From a virus, in the IMG/VR virus record IMGVR_UViG_3300044673_000103, positions 1 through 37,061 of that record: 37,061 bases of DNA. One strand, given 5' to 3'. A program made the position numbers and the translations under genes. Positions 4,654-37,061 of the stretch are shown here, piece by piece. Under the pieces are notes generated by a model. It searched no databases and was not told the origin of the DNA. It saw only the letters and a list, made by a program, of their open reading frames with translations. The stretch's first letter is position 1, and the number at the start of each line of letters is the position of its first letter.

Positions 4654-5940
4654 CTAAAGGGCGATGTCCAGGTCAACTTCGACAGGTCGCCTGACCTGTC
4701 TCCGGGAAGCCCACACCGCCCAGCGCCGGGAGAGTCCGGGAAGGGTTGGGGCTTCGTTCGGCCACTCCCCGGACGACTTCCGGAGGTAGGTGGTCATCAC
4801 GTCCTCTAAGGTCGCGTCGTCATGGCAGACAGCGGCGATGTCCCGAGCTGCTCTCATGTCGTTGGAGCGAGGACCAAGGGAGAGGTCCCACGGGTACTTT
4901 CCCGACCGCTCCTCCTTCCACAGCGCGGCCCACGTCTCCCTCACCGTCTTCTCTCGGGGGTCGAGCGGCTTCGGGTCGTCCTGGGGGTCGTGGAGCCACT
5001 CCAGACCGGCCGTCCGTAGCGCGAGGTCCAGCGCCGCGAGCGTCTTGGGGCTGATGCCCGTCCACGCCTTCACGTCCCTCCGGAGGATGGTCGTGAGCTG
5101 CGCGAGGCTCGATACCTCGTGCTCCTCCAGCGCCGCCTTGCCCTGCCTCGAGAGGGTCGGGAGAGGCACTAGTGTCTGTTGCATCGAAGGCCCATCAGGT
5201 AGGTCGGTGGAACCTCGGGGAGCTTCACCGGCCAGTCCGCGTCCCAGTTCGGGGAGAGACGGTCGAGGATCAGGATCGCTTTCGCCTGCGCTACCTCGCT
5301 CGGGTTGTTGCCGTGGGCGACCTGGCGCAGGAGGCAGATCAGGGTGTCGAACTCGCTCGGGTTCATGGGGAGCGGTGGAGGTGCCTGGACGAGAGAAATC
5401 GTCGGGGGACGATCTGGAAGGCAGGGCTTCCGGCGTCGGGGCTTCTGGAGGGCGTGAGGCATGGTCGCTCCGTGTATCGAACGAGGGAGGTGTCTCTTCA
5501 TGATCCTTGGTCTGGATCCCTGGTCTGGATCCTTGGTCTGGATCGGCTGTCACGCTGACAGGGGTAGGGCTATCAGCCTGACAGGGGTACCCCTGTCTCT
5601 CTGATAGGGGTGTCTCTGTGATAGCCCTGTCACGCTGACAGGGGTGTCTCTCTGACAGGGGTACTTGGGGAGGAATATTCCCCCATACGATGTGCCAGTC
5701 CTGGCGCTTGTGGCCAGGCTTGTAGTCCCTCGCCAACCACCCGGATTCCATCGCCTGCTTGACCCGCCGCTGGATGGTCGCCTGGGAGAGCCCTGTGTAG
5801 AGAGGAAGCCCCGTCGAGTTTGAGGCCCACGACTCCCCGTCGTTCCCGTCCATGCAGTCAGAGATCGCGATCCCAATAAGCCGCGACTCGGGGTCGAGCC
5901 CGGAGCGAAGGAAGGCGCGGGTCCGATCCTGGGGCTTCAT
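4654..5940 (-). CDS. Lambda-O-like replication initiator with internal origin repeats
   Basis: A 428-residue candidate initiator. Residues about 1-90 look like a winged helix (TGLPLYTGLSQATIQRRVK, then a wing ending DWHIVW), as in phage O/DnaA-like initiators. Residues about 93-132 are encoded by six iterons, and 133-146 by three 13-bp repeats, so the origin would lie within the gene as in lambda O. A long Pro/Arg/Ser-rich linker follows. Residues 261-316 (LSRQGKAALEEHEVSSLAQL to ISPKTLAALDLAL) resemble the helix-hairpin-helix C-terminal domain of RNA polymerase alpha. The start overlaps the methylase stop as ATGA. With no phage helicase or polymerase seen, it presumably recruits host replication proteins. 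The O-like role is inferred from architecture, not from a clear match. Confidence 0.75.
   Translation of the reverse strand: MKPQDRTRAFLRSGLDPESRLIGIAISDCMDGNDGESWASNSTGLPLYTGLSQATIQRRVKQAMESGWLARDYKPGHKRQDWHIVWGNIPPQVPLSERHPCQRDRAITETPLSERQGYPCQADSPTPVSVTADPDQGSRPGIQTKDHEETPPSFDTRSDHASRPPEAPTPEALPSRSSPDDFSRPGTSTAPHEPERVRHPDLPPAPGRPRQQPERGSAGESDPDPRPSLPELGRGLAGEAPRGSTDLPDGPSMQQTLVPLPTLSRQGKAALEEHEVSSLAQLTTILRRDVKAWTGISPKTLAALDLALRTAGLEWLHDPQDDPKPLDPREKTVRETWAALWKEERSGKYPWDLSLGPRSNDMRAARDIAAVCHDDATLEDVMTTYLRKSSGEWPNEAPTLPGLSRRWAVWASRRQVRRPVEVDLDIAL
5502..5540. repeat. Three 13-bp tandem repeats beside the iterons
   Basis: GATCCTTGGTCTG occurs three times head to tail (5502, 5515, 5528), the middle copy with one change, and is followed by a further GATC. 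The repeats lie 6 bp from the iteron cluster. They could be a second binding site or an unwinding-linked element of the origin. Confidence 0.85.
5547..5662. other. Iteron cluster, probable replication origin
   Basis: Six direct repeats of about 19 bp begin at 5547, 5570, 5593, 5610, 5627 and 5644, spaced 23, 23, 17, 17 and 17 bases. The copies at 5547 and 5627 are identical (CTGTCACGCTGACAGGGGT) and contain the inverted repeat CTGTCA-CGC-TGACAG. The other copies keep most of the TGACAGGGGT half, some with TGATAG or TGATAGCCCT variants. The cluster lies within the initiator gene, and a GGAATATTCC palindrome follows at 5672-5681. This matches the lambda ori layout. Function as an origin is inference. 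Confidence 0.8.
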
Positions 5941-6623
5941 TCGCCACCCCGCATAGACCGGAACCTATGAAGCCTTCCAAGCGCCTCGGCGTGGCGCACG
6001 GGGTCAATCTCAGCCCCGACGTACCGCCTACACGTCCCGAGGCAGGCGCGGGCGAGTGGAGCCATCCCGGCGTAGAGGTCGAGGACGAGATCGCCGGGAG
6101 AGGTCCACGCAAGCACCCACTGGCGCATCCAGTCAACCGGCTTTTCGGAGTGGTTCGTGGGGCGGGAGACGTGGGCGTTTATGAGGTTCTCCGCGGGGCG
6201 ACCGCACGCGCCCTTGGTGAAGACCGCAACCGGCTCGGATTGCCCTCGCCAGTGGTAGCCGACCCCGAAGGTTCCGGTCTTCACCCACGCTCCTCCTGTA
6301 GTCCTCGCGCCCCACCTAGGACCAGCCCCGCCCGCAGCGTTCCACTCGGCGTCCTTGGGCCATGTGTACCAGACCGCGAGGCGACAGGCTTCGGAGGCGC
6401 AGTCGAAGGAGGCGGAGAGGTGGGCGGAAATCTCGGCTTCGGACAGGCAGGCGTAGATGTCATCGGATGACCCATCGCAGCCCTGATTGGTGTAGTGCCA
6501 CGGCGGATCAGCCACGATCAACCTCGCCCCCCTCACTTCGCGCAACACCTCGTCAACGCCGCAGCATCGGAGGTCGATCCCGTCGATGGAAGGGGGGACC
6601 GGATTCGGGAAAAGCTGATTCAT
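5937..6623 (-). CDS. DNA methyltransferase, DPPW (beta-class/MT-A70-like)
   Basis: Probable N6-adenine or N4-cytosine methyltransferase of 228 residues. The catalytic motif ADPPWHY is at about 38-44 and precedes the SAM-binding segment (SPGDLVLDLYAGMAPLA, about 175-191). This order is the reverse of the D12 enzymes and typical of the beta/MT-A70-like group. NHSEKP near 157-162 is also typical of this family. It heads the replication operon, and its stop overlaps the initiator start. Only a weak AGG lies before its ATG, so expression may depend on an upstream leader. Target specificity is not visible. Confidence 0.85.
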   Translation of the reverse strand: MNQLFPNPVPPSIDGIDLRCCGVDEVLREVRGARLIVADPPWHYTNQGCDGSSDDIYACLSEAEISAHLSASFDCASEACRLAVWYTWPKDAEWNAAGGAGPRWGARTTGGAWVKTGTFGVGYHWRGQSEPVAVFTKGACGRPAENLINAHVSRPTNHSEKPVDWMRQWVLAWTSPGDLVLDLYAGMAPLARACLGTCRRYVGAEIDPVRHAEALGRLHRFRSMRGGE

Positions 6624-6752: not shown

Positions 6753-7517
6753 CTACCCTAGGAGGTGAGAGGGTGCAAGTGCTCCAAGAAGGTCAGTCTG
6801 CGTCCCCTCACCCGGCCACACGACCTCATGAGAGACGCCCGTTCTGCCCTTTCCCGGCGTGCCCTTGATGGTCGCCATAGGCACGAAGGGGAGCCAATCC
6901 GCCCCGGCCGCCTCGCAGACCATGACCTGACCTCGGAGGGTTCTGCACCACTCCCCGAGATCGGCATAGTCGCCCGGCTGGAGGTGGTGAGGGTAATGCT
7001 TCCCCATCACCTGATACGGAGGGTCAACCATCCAGGTAGCTTCGATGTGTGGCGCGTCTTGATAGGAGCCTTCGATGATGCGCCAGTGCCGGATTCTGGG
7101 GACTTGGCGGGCGATTCTTCTCCTGGGTCGCTCGTCCCATCCGATCATTCGAGAACCTGACCACTCTCGCGCCCACGCAGATTGAACCCTGCATGGGGAA
7201 GAGGTGGCGTTATTGCACCAAAACCCAGCCAGCCACCGCGCCTCTTGGCAGCACGGAAGATCGTCCACCGTACCGCCTTCGGGGATGTCCGGGATCGCGA
7301 GGATCTCCTCTGGACTCACGGCGATGAGGTAGCGCCAGATCCCGGCGATCACGGGTGACTTGTCGATCAGGGTGACTCGGTGATCCGGGTAGTGGCAGGC
7401 GTACCCGGCAGCGCCCGCGAACGGCTCGATGATGTCGGGGTAGCGCGGCTCCGGGTAGTGGCCAGCGGCGGCCCACTTGCCACCGAAGTAGCGCCAGAAG
7501 GGGCGGAGAGCGGTCAT
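6753..7517 (-). CDS. D12-class DNA adenine methyltransferase (second copy type)
   Basis: A 254-residue adenine-N6 methylase. WRYFGGKW (8-15) and the SAM site EPFAGAAGYA (31-40) are followed by the catalytic DPPY (165-168), the usual order for Dam/D12 enzymes. The size is near that of a compact Dam. It is clearly different in sequence from the D12 enzyme at the left end. The chosen ATG overlaps the stop of a 45-residue peptide gene as ATGA and begins the conserved FGGK region. The open frame upstream lies antiphase within the next gene and is ignored. It is the last gene of the long coupled operon. Confidence 0.85.
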   Translation of the reverse strand: MTALRPFWRYFGGKWAAAGHYPEPRYPDIIEPFAGAAGYACHYPDHRVTLIDKSPVIAGIWRYLIAVSPEEILAIPDIPEGGTVDDLPCCQEARWLAGFWCNNATSSPCRVQSAWAREWSGSRMIGWDERPRRRIARQVPRIRHWRIIEGSYQDAPHIEATWMVDPPYQVMGKHYPHHLQPGDYADLGEWCRTLRGQVMVCEAAGADWLPFVPMATIKGTPGKGRTGVSHEVVWPGEGTQTDLLGALAPSHLLG

Positions 7518-7651
7518 GGGGTTAATCTCGGGAGCCTGCAACCCCTCCCAGCGAGGCACCGGACGAGCCGATACCTCACCCACTCCTCCGCCTCGTACTC
7601 CCCGAGGCAACGAAGGCGGTAGCAGAGGCAGGAGAGGAGAGCGGGGGTCAT
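7514..7651 (-). CDS. Very short cysteine-containing protein (45 aa)
   Basis: Both ends are 4-base ATGA overlaps with the neighbouring genes, so the peptide fits exactly between them. It reads MTPALLSCLCYRLRCLGEYE and ends GCRLPRLTP, with five cysteines and many arginines. The first 12 residues are mildly hydrophobic. No family was recognised. Without it there would be an untranslated gap in an otherwise continuous operon. Confidence 0.5.
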   Translation of the reverse strand: MTPALLSCLCYRLRCLGEYEAEEWVRYRLVRCLAGRGCRLPRLTP

Positions 7652-8199
7652 CGGTGGCACCTGGAGGCCAGGTCCACGAGCCACGCGGCGAACGCTGGCG
7701 GGGTGAGGTGGCGTTGAGTCTTGGAGAGACGCTCAAGAATGCCCCTCGTCCTGCCAGGAGTCGGAGGAGCCTCGACTGGAGGAAGGTGCTCGGGAAAATC
7801 GGGGAGGTTCCAAGGTTTGCAGCCGACGATGTAGAGCCATGTCGCCTTGTCGGCTCGGTGGCCCCAATCGCGCTGGTAGACCTCGACGGTGTAGCCGCCC
7901 CATTCGTCAGGGAGGTGGCCGGGAAGGGGCATCCTGCACTCGCGCCACAGTTTCGAGTCGCGGGGGTGTTCCAGCACTCCACCAAACCGGCGGACCTGCT
8001 CGACGGCGATAGGGCCTGTATGCCCGTCGTCGTGGGCCTTCTGATGGTAGCGGCCCCAATGCCCGCACGGGGGATGCGCCACGACGGGCCACGGTCCATC
8101 GTAGGTCGTCGCGTCACGCTCGACGCCCCAACACTCGACGCCTTCCATCTTGGCGTAGGGGCCTCGCTTCACGTCCACGTAGAGGGCGGCGACGGTCAT
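7648..8199 (-). CDS. Conserved-type phage protein with HPPC motif
   Basis: A 183-residue protein containing VVAHPPCGHWG (about 38-48), GGVLEHPRDSKLW (about 71-83) and QRDWGHRADKATWLYIVG (about 108-125). The Pro-Cys followed later by an E-x-P-like segment (EHP) recalls the PC and ENV motifs of cytosine-C5 methyltransferases, but no SAM-binding FxGxG motif is seen, so activity cannot be claimed. I recall similar proteins in other phages without a known role. The start overlaps the previous stop as ATGA. It sits among methylases, so a link to DNA modification is plausible. Confidence 0.7.
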   Translation of the reverse strand: MTVAALYVDVKRGPYAKMEGVECWGVERDATTYDGPWPVVAHPPCGHWGRYHQKAHDDGHTGPIAVEQVRRFGGVLEHPRDSKLWRECRMPLPGHLPDEWGGYTVEVYQRDWGHRADKATWLYIVGCKPWNLPDFPEHLPPVEAPPTPGRTRGILERLSKTQRHLTPPAFAAWLVDLASRCHR

Positions 8200-8603: not shown

Positions 8604-8875
8604 GGCTTGTCCGGGTAGTCATAGACCGTGATGAGCAGCCGCCTACCCTTCCTCTCGCACTTCACGCCCATGGCCTTTCGGTTGGCGTGCTCCTCGTCCG
8701 TCTCGACGGTGAGGCCCTCGTCAATGCTGGTCTTCCCGAGGAACTCCACGAAGTCACGGATCGCATCGTACTCCTCGCCCGTGGGGTGGAAGCCGTCCTT
8801 GTCGTCCGAGACGAGCGCCTTGAGCCCCCGGTACACGGTCCGCGCCTTGTCGGCGGTGTAGTGGTCGGTCTTCAT
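8600..8875 (-). CDS. Hypothetical protein (91 aa)
   Basis: A small charged protein (MKTDHYTADKARTVYRGLKA) with a helical N-terminus and a beta-like, basic C-terminus (CERKGRRLLITVYDYPDKP). The start at 8875 overlaps the upstream stop as ATGA; the slightly longer frame is less likely. No family was recognised. Confidence 0.7.
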   Translation of the reverse strand: MKTDHYTADKARTVYRGLKALVSDDKDGFHPTGEEYDAIRDFVEFLGKTSIDEGLTVETDEEHANRKAMGVKCERKGRRLLITVYDYPDKP

Positions 8876-9189
8876 GGCCTCTCCATCCATTCCACGAGGT
8901 CAGCCCTCTTCATGCTCCCCACGAGGCTTTTGCACTTCTCGCGGATCGCCTCCTCCATGCACGCCCGAGCCATCGCCCGGAGTGACTCGCGCCACGCGGG
9001 GTCGTTGCGGAGCTCGGCGAAGGCCGCTACCACGTCGCCCACGAGAAGTTTGCTCATCTCGGGGGTGGCGCGGGTGATGGCCTCGTGGAAGGCAGAGGGG
9101 TTTCCGGTTCCGTGCCATCCCTCTCGGCGGCCAAACATGGCCTCCTCGACGGCGGCTTGCAGCTTGTCTTCCGGGATGGTGATGTTCAT
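8872..9189 (-). CDS. Hypothetical helical protein (105 aa)
   Basis: Starts MNITIPEDKLQAAVEEAMFG and is mostly alpha-helical, with several Trp/Arg pairs. The opening phrase I-P-x-x-K-L-x-x-A-x-x-E is common in small phage early proteins of unknown role. ATGA overlaps join it to both neighbours. No function is proposed. Confidence 0.7.
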   Translation of the reverse strand: MNITIPEDKLQAAVEEAMFGRREGWHGTGNPSAFHEAITRATPEMSKLLVGDVVAAFAELRNDPAWRESLRAMARACMEEAIREKCKSLVGSMKRADLVEWMERP

Positions 9190-9827
9190 GGCTCAACCCT
9201 CTTGAACTCGACGACCCAGACCCAGGGGCTCGAGGCCCACGGGGCGCGCTCGCCGTTGATGTGGTCCCAAAGCCGATGGAACTCGCCGCGGTGGTTGAGG
9301 TCGCCACCCACCGAGGAGTCCTTCACGCCCTCCTCCCTGGCATCCTCCTCGCTGATGTCCAGAAGCCGCTCGACGCGGACGGAGACTACCTCCAGGGTAA
9401 GGCGGGAGGCCCAGTGGGGCATGTGGATAGAGGGGAGCCAGCCAGGACGCCCACCCTGGTACTCCGCGCGCTCCCAGGGTCTGTCCTTAGAGTCGGCCAT
9501 GTAGAAAACGTCACCCGAGCACTCCCACCACGACTCCCTCACCCACAGTCGGTCTCCAACAGACCACTTCGGGTAAACGCGCTCACGGCAACCCTCGTCG
9601 CGGTCAGGTTCACCCGGCGCTCCCCGGTAGACGTAGTGGACATGCAAATAGGGTCCTGGCCAGAAGATGGTGCCTCCATCGTCGGAGAAGGCGTCGGATT
9701 CCCAACATGGCGCGGGAGTTGTCACCTTCGACGACGGGGGCTTGACGATCCGCCTCGTCTGCGTCTTGTGCCCGCCGAGGATGGCGAGGACCATTGGGGC
9801 TGAAAACAGGATCGGGTGCTCTTTCAT
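9186..9827 (-). CDS. ASCH-like phage protein
   Basis: A 213-residue protein with the pattern of phage ASCH/PUA-like proteins: HPILFSAPMVLAILGGHKTQ then TRRIV at the start, GDRLWVRESWWE in the middle, MPHWASRLTLEVVSVRVERL, DISEEDAREEGV, and PWVWVVEFKRV at the end. Members are thought to bind RNA or modified bases, but their job in phages is not settled. A role next to DNA methylases is possible. Its length and motif order are as usual for the family. Start and stop are ATGA overlaps, the stop leading into the next early gene. Confidence 0.8.
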   Translation of the reverse strand: MKEHPILFSAPMVLAILGGHKTQTRRIVKPPSSKVTTPAPCWESDAFSDDGGTIFWPGPYLHVHYVYRGAPGEPDRDEGCRERVYPKWSVGDRLWVRESWWECSGDVFYMADSKDRPWERAEYQGGRPGWLPSIHMPHWASRLTLEVVSVRVERLLDISEEDAREEGVKDSSVGGDLNHRGEFHRLWDHINGERAPWASSPWVWVVEFKRVEP

Positions 9828-10817: not shown

Positions 10818-11050
10818 GGGGACTCCTTCGCGGCGGGGTCGGGCCAGGTCGGCACGCACTCACCCGCTGGATCAACAAGACCGCACCATCCTTTCCTTGG
10901 TACGGGAGTCTGCCAGTTCTGGCACCACGCCGAGCACTCGGAGCCGATGCAGTCGCGTGGGTCCGGGATGTCGAAACCGCATTCTACCCTCCCGCTTTCG
11001 TGGACGATGTTGTAGGGAACGGACGGCCCGATGGTCAGGTGGCACTTCAT
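10814..11050 (-). CDS. Cysteine-rich small protein (78 aa)
   Basis: Seven cysteines and several Trp and Pro residues in 78 residues: MKCHLTIGPS, CGF, RDCIGSECSAWCQNW, GWCGL, ECVPTW. The spacing suggests zinc binding rather than disulfides, as there is no signal peptide. The start at 11050 overlaps the stop of the Rad50-like gene as ATGA. No family was recognised. Confidence 0.65.
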   Translation of the reverse strand: MKCHLTIGPSVPYNIVHESGRVECGFDIPDPRDCIGSECSAWCQNWQTPVPRKGWCGLVDPAGECVPTWPDPAAKESP

Positions 11051-12879
11051 GACCTGCTCCCGGTGTCGAGGAGGACGAGACGAGACTCCGTGGGCCACTT
11101 CTCCCCGTTCGGCGGGCTCCAGTCCTGCGCCCGGTCCACCCAGAGGTAGGATGAGGCCATCCCGAGGGCCGAGCGGAGCGCCGCCCGAAGGCAGACATCC
11201 CCGAAGACCCGCTCACCGTCCGAGGCCGACGACCACGCCCGACCCTTCCAGAGGACCTCGACGCCCTCGGCAGTCTCCTGGAGGGATACGGGGCCGAGGA
11301 GTCCGGTCGCTTCGATGGCGGCGATGGTCTTCGGGAGAAGCGTTGCGGGAGCCTCGCGGGCGACCTTCACGAGATGGCGGAGGCGTTCCGTCCTGACCTT
11401 GCACGCCTCCCAGCGGGCCTCGGCGGCCTCGACCTGGAGGAGCGCAGACTGCATCCTGTCCTCACGGTCGCTGGCGACCACCTCGGCGCGTTCGAGGTCG
11501 CGGAGGGCCTGCCGGGCAGCATCGAGGGCGACGGCGCCCGGCTGGGTGCTCGTCGGGGCGGTGGGCTCGGGTCCGGAGACGAGGGCGGACCACGCCTGTT
11601 GGGTGAGGCCACTCTGGGCGACGAGGAGATCGCGGCGCTCTCCCCACCGGGTCCACGCCTCGGCCTTGGCGCGGAGGGTGTCGAGCTCGGAGAACGCCTG
11701 GGCGCTCCGAAGGTCCGCATCCCTGCTCTCCTGCTCGGCCACCTCCAGAGCAGCGCGGGCCTCGTCCTCGATGGTCTTGGCCTTGGCGATGGCTTCGGCC
11801 CTCTCGGATTCCCACTTCTCGGAGGCGTCGAAGCACGCGGAGCGGGCCGCGTCGAGCTCCGCGAGAAGCGCTTGCCGCTTCCTGTCGGCGGCGATCCCTC
11901 CGTGTTCGCACGCCTCGCAGGCACCCATGAGGACCGGGGCGGGCTTGGCGGCCTGCGCCTCTAGCATCCTCACCGTGGCTCGGAGGTCCACCAGCGCGGT
12001 GGGCTCCCTCGGCGGTTGCCACGCCCGAGCCTGCGCCAGAAGGGCCATCCCGCCCGTCACCTTGGCGGCGGCGTGCTCGGCCATCCGGGAGGCCGACTCG
12101 TAGACCTCCTGCGCCGCACTGATGGCGGAGGCGCTGATTCGCGTTCCGCGCTCTCCAAGGCTCCTGGCGGCCTCCCAGGCGTCCCGGCGGGTGAGGTAGC
12201 CGCTCCACTCGTCCCCGGCCTCTACGAGCCTCCTGGAGGCCTCTGCGTCCACCTGGACGGGCGGGGCGAGTGCGGCGTAAGTCTGACGCGCCTGCTCCAT
12301 GGCCCCGAGGGCGATGTTCTCCGCCCGCTGGGCGTCCAGCCGCCGGTCGTCCAGCCGCTTCGGGTCGGTGGGGTCGCCGTCGAGGTAGAACTCCGAGGCG
12401 CGGATCGTGTCCTCGCAGAGAGATGCGGTCGCCCTCGCGATGGCTGGCTTGCCACCGTCCAGCGGGATGTCGCTGAACGAGGCGATCAGGAGGTCGCGGA
12501 GCTCCAGCGGGGAAAGCGAGGCATACCACGCGGTACGGTCGCCGTGAGGGGCCGAGACGAGCAGGAGGCGACCCGGATCGACCGAGCGCCATGAGGAGGC
12601 GCACTCGCGCCATTCGTTCATGGAGCGGCAGACGGTATCGCCCCACTGGCGGCGCTTGGCGTCGAGGTGGAGGACGGTGGAGCCGAAGGCCATCTCTACC
12701 GAGGCGCCCTCGGGAAGGTCGGCGGGCTTGCCCTGCTCGTCCTTGCCGATCATGAGGGCCAGGTAGGCGCGGAGGGCGGTCGTCTTCCCGGCGCCGGATG
12801 GGGCGCGGTAGAGGGTGACGCCGGGGAGGAGGTCGAGGGAGACGGGTACGGCAAGGCCGGTCGTGGTCAGGCGGGGCAT
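11047..12879 (-). CDS. Rad50/SMC/RecF-like ATPase
   Basis: A 610-residue protein of the ABC/SMC group. The Walker A motif APSGAGKTT is at 26-34. Long alanine-rich helical arms follow, with CEAC at 321-324 very near the middle, where Rad50 has its zinc hook. A signature-like SDGER is at 553-557, and a Walker-B-like hydrophobic strand YLWVD ends in Asp582 but with R-A-Q instead of the usual catalytic Glu. Such proteins bind or tether DNA in repair and replication. No partner nuclease like SbcD is seen; the gene before it is clamp-like. The ATG shares one base with the previous stop (TGATG). Missing Glu may mean slow hydrolysis. Confidence 0.8.
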   Translation of the reverse strand: MPRLTTTGLAVPVSLDLLPGVTLYRAPSGAGKTTALRAYLALMIGKDEQGKPADLPEGASVEMAFGSTVLHLDAKRRQWGDTVCRSMNEWRECASSWRSVDPGRLLLVSAPHGDRTAWYASLSPLELRDLLIASFSDIPLDGGKPAIARATASLCEDTIRASEFYLDGDPTDPKRLDDRRLDAQRAENIALGAMEQARQTYAALAPPVQVDAEASRRLVEAGDEWSGYLTRRDAWEAARSLGERGTRISASAISAAQEVYESASRMAEHAAAKVTGGMALLAQARAWQPPREPTALVDLRATVRMLEAQAAKPAPVLMGACEACEHGGIAADRKRQALLAELDAARSACFDASEKWESERAEAIAKAKTIEDEARAALEVAEQESRDADLRSAQAFSELDTLRAKAEAWTRWGERRDLLVAQSGLTQQAWSALVSGPEPTAPTSTQPGAVALDAARQALRDLERAEVVASDREDRMQSALLQVEAAEARWEACKVRTERLRHLVKVAREAPATLLPKTIAAIEATGLLGPVSLQETAEGVEVLWKGRAWSSASDGERVFGDVCLRAALRSALGMASSYLWVDRAQDWSPPNGEKWPTESRLVLLDTGSRS

Positions 12880-13397
12880 CAGTGTCTCCTCACGGGCATG
12901 ATGACCGCGAGGCGGCCCATTCCGTCTACGATCCGGACGGGGGCCAGCGGCGACTCCTGGGGGTACACGCCGATGATGGCTCGGTCCTTGTCCTTGCCCA
13001 TGGCTCGGAGGATGCGGTCGAGGATACCGACCGTGAGGCACACGGTGGAGTCTTTTTCATTGGGGACCACGGGCAGGAAGTCGAGGGAGGTGCCCGGCTT
13101 GTCCTCGGTGATCTGGACGACTCGGAACCCGCCCCGGCCATCGGGGAAAGCGTGGATTCCGGGGCGCATCGGAACGTCGAGGTCCTTGTCGAGCGCACAG
13201 CCCTGGAGCGTGATCCGGTAGGTCTCCGGTACCTTCTGCTTGTCGGGGATCGCGAGGAGACTGTTTCCGTCCGTGATGGCGGCGTACCCGTCGCGCCAGA
13301 AGATGACGCCGACGCACGGGCTACTCCATCCCTTCGTCTGCATGGCCTCCATGCGCCAGATGTCGGGGGTTAGGGTGATGGTGGGTTCGGTGGTCAT
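12879..13397 (-). CDS. Possible sliding-clamp-like (DnaN-like) protein
   Basis: A 172-residue protein. The final segment SPLAPVRIVDG then LAVIMPVRRH resembles the C-terminal end of beta clamps, where PVxI-strands end in VxMPxR. Before it, LTVGILDRILRAMG recalls the helix of the last clamp domain. The N-terminal part has a strand-rich look with YAAITDGNSLLAIP. It is about half the length of DnaN, so it would have to oligomerise more than usual. The ATG at 13397 overlaps the upstream stop. Its placement between RecT and a Rad50-like ATPase fits a recombination/replication unit. The assignment is a hypothesis. Confidence 0.55.
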   Translation of the reverse strand: MTTEPTITLTPDIWRMEAMQTKGWSSPCVGVIFWRDGYAAITDGNSLLAIPDKQKVPETYRITLQGCALDKDLDVPMRPGIHAFPDGRGGFRVVQITEDKPGTSLDFLPVVPNEKDSTVCLTVGILDRILRAMGKDKDRAIIGVYPQESPLAPVRIVDGMGRLAVIMPVRRH

Positions 13398-37009: not shown

Positions 37010-37061
37010 TCATGGCCTCCTGGGAATACGGGCGCTCCGGGGGGTGCGCACAGCGAGAAAG

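Follow-up and report, generated by a model that had tools for sequence, protein, structure and literature searches.

A candidate lambda-O-type intragenic replication origin of a two-spacing subclass in an IMG/VR virus record

Introduction

The lambda origin is a textbook model, and both the rationale for the spacing of its iterons and the opening of adjacent DNA by the initiator are still debated. A helicase or loader gene is found next door in lambda, P22 and several relatives. In lambdoid phages, iterons (each an inverted repeat) and an AT-rich region lie in the middle of gene O and are bound by O dimers, and lambda O is a proven origin (PMC7466680).

The DNA analysed here, referred to as the window, is a stretch of 37,061 nucleotides (positions 1 to 37,061 of IMG/VR virus record IMGVR_UViG_3300044673_000103). 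A preliminary description had pointed out six direct repeats inside one gene, had likened them to lambda ori, which sits likewise inside gene O, and had proposed that they are the phage origin and that the encoded protein is its initiator. The likeness holds in the annotation, where the lambda iterons correspond to O codons 117-145. The gene, its repeats and homologous genes in other genomes were compared to evaluate this proposal.

Results

An O-like protein with an N-terminal winged helix

The gene and its domain are located as follows.

4654 to 5940, minus strand: putative initiator gene, 428 aa (open reading frame and translation, PHROG match, family HMM)
5689 to 5934, minus strand: winged-helix domain codons, residues 3-84 (AlphaFold2 model)
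5743 to 5790, minus strand: codons of the recognition helix and its N-cap, residues 51-66
5937 to 6623, minus strand: DNA methyltransferase gene (PHROG and Pfam N6_N4_Mtase), directly upstream with an ATGA overlap; context only

The ATG of the putative initiator gene overlaps the stop codon of the upstream methyltransferase gene. In a PHROG search, the 428-aa protein matches phrog_391, 'replication initiation O-like' (E 6.3e-5), and an HMM of 121 homologous initiators from the census described below, built without the window, ranks ORF 4654-5940 top among the window ORFs (4.3e-5). The match to Pfam HTH_36 is below the cut-off (17.8 versus 25 bits) and only suggestive. The winged-helix look of the N-terminal part, already remarked upon in the preliminary description, is reproduced by an AlphaFold2 model of residues 3-84 based on a 47-sequence alignment, with helices at 3-11, 17-28, 44-49 and 53-66 plus two wing strands (mean pLDDT 78). 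A single-sequence prediction for the full-length protein gave no usable model (pLDDT 39). Structural neighbours of the winged-helix model in the PDB are generic, MarR/Fur-like winged helices, and the best matches in a viral structure library are helix-turn-helix proteins and replication proteins of phages, one of them a replication protein O.

Sequence identity of the domain to homologous initiators is weak, at 12-29% over the domain. A homolog search with the C-terminal half detected none, and the full-length protein has no close relatives in viral contigs, species genomes, phages or plasmids. With the N-terminal domain as a tblastn query against the phage collection, the only match was gene 4 of Sphingopyxis phage VSN-002, which carries an array with steps of 30, 17, 17 and 22.

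An iteron array that runs through all three reading frames

The array and the sequence that adjoins it consist of the following units.

5644 to 5660, minus strand: iteron 1, 17-bp unit CCCTGTCAGAGAGACAC, closest to the DNA-binding-domain codons
5627 to 5643, minus strand: iteron 2, 17-bp unit, perfect 15-bp dyad
5610 to 5626, minus strand: iteron 3, 17-bp unit
5587 to 5609, minus strand: iteron 4, 23-bp unit
5564 to 5586, minus strand: iteron 5, 23-bp unit
5545 to 5563, minus strand: iteron 6, perfect 15-bp dyad, adjoining the proposed melting region
5506 to 5544, minus strand: proposed unwinding element, three tandem 13-mers GATCCAGACCAAG

Six dyad repeats of the form TGTC-N5-GACA span 5545-5660 (minus strand) within gene 4654-5940 and occupy codons 94-132 of this minus-strand ORF. 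On the plus strand the copies start at 5547, 5570, 5593, 5610, 5627 and 5644, giving the steps of 23, 23, 17, 17 and 17 bp reported earlier; in gene sense the steps are 17, 17, 17, 23 and 23. The 13-bp dyad (4-bp half-sites, 5-bp gap) is 88% paired in the window array. The two identical palindromic copies that had been noticed were recovered, as CTGTCACGCTGACAG occurs exactly twice in the whole record (5547-5561 and 5627-5641), and the remaining four copies are imperfect dyads.

The codon phases of the six copies are 1, 2, 0, 1, 2 and 0, and all three reading frames are used. Because the phases rotate, the repeat is a DNA-level one and the encoded protein is non-repetitive. None of 1500 synonymous-codon permutations with the same protein and codon usage reached six copies at the observed identity, and the array as first described thus stands. 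Ten other window genes tested with the same method have no significant array. The raw array statistic also picks out two antisense or low-complexity stretches elsewhere in the window, and the frame-rotation and permutation tests therefore matter.

It could be imagined that the repeats are a low-complexity linker that arose by tandem duplication and has no role at the DNA level, given that the iteron stretch encodes a Pro/Thr/Ser/Arg-rich linker and that the adjoining 13-mers are nearly identical, as after recent duplication. However, neither 17 nor 23 is a multiple of 3, which leaves the protein aperiodic; dyad symmetry is kept; and the census shows that genes with differing repeat sequences keep the same spacing classes in the same order. 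Such an explanation is hardly credible. A plasmid-type iteron origin (Rep_3, TrfA or RepA-like) in a phage-plasmid is also highly improbable. Iterons of 17 and 22 bp are frequent in plasmids, but no plasmid Rep family is matched in Pfam or NCBIfam, tblastn finds no match in the plasmid collection, and the location of the iterons, inside the gene and past the DNA-binding domain, matches lambda O.

Spacing and order are conserved among homologous initiators

A function-blind scan of 1166 ORFs taken from the fetched loci found 15 mixed-phase arrays, almost only in replication-initiator genes. The initiators among them are lambda O, the window gene and genes of loci L102, L083, L068, L051, L054, L031, L095 and L055. 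The L106 array is antisense to an O-like gene, and the L039 and L049 arrays, of four copies each, matched no PHROG family.

For the census, a winged-helix domain alignment that lacked the window retrieved 160 homologous genes, from virus contigs and from species genomes, which dereplication reduced to 150. An array was taken as significant if it had at least 4 copies and 0 of 40 synonymous shuffles were as good. Significant arrays are present in 121 of the 150 initiators, just after the winged-helix codons (median start at codon 82). This layout is seen in HTH_36-type 'replication initiation O-like / primosomal protein I' genes, among them those of Sphingopyxis phage VSN-002, of Pseudomonas phages MD8, LESphi3 and PseuP_224, of a Microcystis phage and of prophages of Sphingomonas, Pseudomonas and Burkholderiales.

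Steps between copies fall into a short class (16, 17 and 18 bp, seen 62, 176 and 13 times, respectively) and a long class (21, 22 and 23 bp, seen 37, 144 and 39 times), with few in between. All short steps precede the long ones in 87 of the 97 arrays that have both classes, and the reverse order is never found (0/97). The window has the same two-spacing layout, with 16-18-bp steps first and 21-23-bp steps after them in gene sense. The usual census unit combines half(4)-N5-half(4) with some 4 further bp, often CCCC. Half-sites have diverged (xGCA, xGAA, xGAC and xGTC), while spacing and order are kept. Common descent accounts for part of the conserved spacing order; the repeat sequences have nonetheless diverged.

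These data also bear on whether the array is instead an operator, by which the winged-helix protein or a repressor would autoregulate or silence the gene, the origin being elsewhere. Arrayed dyadic sites are typical of operators too, and the winged helix of the protein is of the generic, MarR/Fur-like kind. However, the sites are about 280 bp inside the gene and not at a promoter, the array and the AT-rich stretch after it are shared by 121 homologous replication-initiator genes (annotated or matched), and the identically laid-out array of lambda O has been proven to be an origin (PMC7466680). An operator in place of an origin is thus very unlikely, although the two roles are compatible and not mutually exclusive.

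Half-sites covary with the recognition helix

Covariation was analysed in 94 origin/initiator pairs with a clear half-site, with half-sites assigned by a heuristic and phylogeny controlled only roughly, by thinning. The half-site covaries with recognition-helix columns at all three thinning levels, and after thinning the columns that tell most about it cluster at window residues 51-58, where helix 53-66 begins. At the first recognition-helix position (Q53 in the window), Asp pairs with GAA and Glu with GCA (Fisher p at 0.7 thinning of 3e-5 and 1e-3, respectively). This indirect evidence suggests that the winged helix reads the repeats.

A separate rule, in which GTC half-sites would go with loss of the conserved recognition-helix arginine, was rejected, as L215 keeps the arginine with a GTC-like half-site.

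A repeat-based candidate melting region follows the array

The three-copy 13-bp tandem repeat directly adjoins the iteron array and was absent from the preliminary description. A further GATC is found beside it, at 5502-5505. The 13-mer region ranks in the least stable 1% of 50-bp stretches (99th percentile of instability). AT content is 45% in the 60 bp after the window array versus 35% in the whole gene; the lambda value is 68%. In the census genes, AT content in the first 30 bp after the array exceeds that of the gene by 14 points.

The motif AACC[AGT][TC][CA]A occurs within 90 bp after the array in 105 of 121 genes and at least twice in 82 of 121, with steps of mostly 10, 11 or 12 bp. In the control region 3 genes have the motif and none has it at least twice. 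Motifs of the AACC(A/G)TCA type are missing in 16 of the 121 members, and are thus common, but neither universal nor defining. As AACC(A/G)TCA repeats 10-12 bp apart, they are seen directly after the array in most HTH_36-type initiator genes (L123-L282). AACC(A/G)TCA is absent from the window, where the three 13-mers are in the same place. The 13-mers are nearly identical to each other and have an A/C-rich, T-poor strand bias, as in the motif region of relatives. They may do the same job as the AACC(A/G)TCA repeats.

GGATCC occurs only twice in the record, both times in the 13-mer repeat beside the iterons, against an expectation of 16 (Markov model) or 25 (shuffles). Several other 6-bp palindromes are likewise avoided genome-wide: CGATCG is found 0 times versus 27 expected, and GTCGAC once versus 18.

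Strand composition

A cumulative GC-skew test had been suggested along with the preliminary description. The minimum is at 5149, about 400 bp from the array, with the genes used all on one strand. To the left of the initiator gene the coding skew at third positions is +0.05, and to the right of it -0.22. Codon usage of the structural genes may be the source of this shift, and 154 of 5000 block shuffles have their minimum at most 500 bp from 5600. Skew is counted as weak support because codon usage confounds it and shuffles match it at this rate: the position of the minimum is consistent with an origin, but the test has little force.

Gene neighbourhood and related contigs

The record, which may be a fragment, has no DnaB_C match that would indicate a DnaB-type helicase. 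No helicase loader was recognised in it, and the downstream ORFs match none; the loader may be unrecognisable. Three DNA methyltransferase genes are present, one with a clear match (5937-6623) and two with weak matches (6753-8117 and 766-1776). ORF 11047-13041 (664 aa), possibly SbcC/RecN-like, contains a Walker A-like motif along with long, coiled-coil-like stretches of charged residues; it matches no family above the cut-off.

Terminase, methyltransferase and full-protein searches found no close relative that contains the array region of the window. Terminase led to one identical and one 70% fragment, neither of which reaches the origin, and methyltransferase to 19 loci, none with a homologous initiator. 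Viral contigs were also scanned for CTGTCA-N3-TGACAG pairs, and the six loci inspected showed no initiator homolog. In L025, CTGTCA-N3-TGACAG dyads are intergenic (9454-9482), just downstream of an ORF (8662-9432) that by eye resembles a DUF1376-type replication protein; this is a possible origin outside coding sequence. An independent IMG/VR contig, 3300044712_000521, shares 11.9 kb at 100% identity and starts 6 bases beyond the window end at 37061. Such a common end could reflect either a terminus of the genome or a break in the assembly.

Discussion

The reading of the 428-aa protein as a lambda-O-type replication initiator, and of the intragenic array as the phage origin, is given a probability of roughly 0.9. 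The original proposal to this effect is supported by the PHROG O-like match, the winged-helix model and the half-site covariation, and by an array at the same place in lambda O, P22 gene 18 and 121 of 150 homologous initiators. Points that count against it are that neither a DnaB-type helicase nor a loader gene was recognised in the record, that the AACC(A/G)TCA motif of the relatives is missing, and that the domain resembles the family only weakly in sequence.

Binding, melting and helicase loading at the window origin can be sketched from its anatomy and from lambda. Each dyad would be bound by the winged helix, probably as a dimer, with the half-site read by recognition-helix residues 51-58. 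The filled array would then wrap or bend the DNA such that the 13-mer region at 5506-5544 melts, after which the C-terminal part would recruit the helicase, with a loader from the host or an unrecognised phage protein.

On balance, many HTH_36-type phage initiators appear to share a polar origin grammar, in which a block of 17-bp steps beside the binding-domain codons is followed by a block of 22-bp steps beside a melting region of short repeats spaced by about one helical turn, and in which spacing is fixed while half-site and recognition helix change together. Under this reading, the window would represent a divergent member, one with a half-site and 13-bp melting repeats of its own. A literature search for the 17/22 spacing, intragenic phage iterons and the AACCATCA motif returned nothing relevant; its coverage was partial, and novelty is unproven. 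More than 100 natural pairs of origin and initiator, in which the spacing is constant, the half-sites vary and the melting region is built of repeats, provide a comparative data set for direct tests of helical phasing, of the recognition code and of what the melting repeats do. The layout also allows origins to be located in uncultivated phage genomes by sequence alone.

Comparison with known systems

The window is best classed as a probable lambda-O-type intragenic origin of the two-spacing subclass. Like lambda O, it has an N-terminal DNA-binding domain and, just after it, intragenic iterons that are each an inverted repeat; on the C-terminal side of the array it is AT-richer than the rest of the gene, but far less AT-rich than lambda. 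Lambda differs in having four 18-bp iterons with steps of 20, 24 and 23, no short-step block and another half-site, and its P helicase loader gene directly follows O, whereas none is recognised in the window. Gene 18 of Salmonella phage P22 also has an intragenic array, of 4 copies at codons 119-141 and annotated as rep_origin, but with a single spacing class (steps of 20, 24 and 23), and it is followed by a DnaB-like helicase gene. The HTH_36-type initiators share with the window the winged helix, an array from about codon 82, 16-18-bp and then 21-23-bp steps, the half(4)-N5-half(4) unit and an AT-richer stretch after it. They differ in their half-sites, mostly xGCA or xGAA versus TGTC in the window, and in having AACC(A/G)TCA repeats 10-12 bp apart where the window has its 13-mers.
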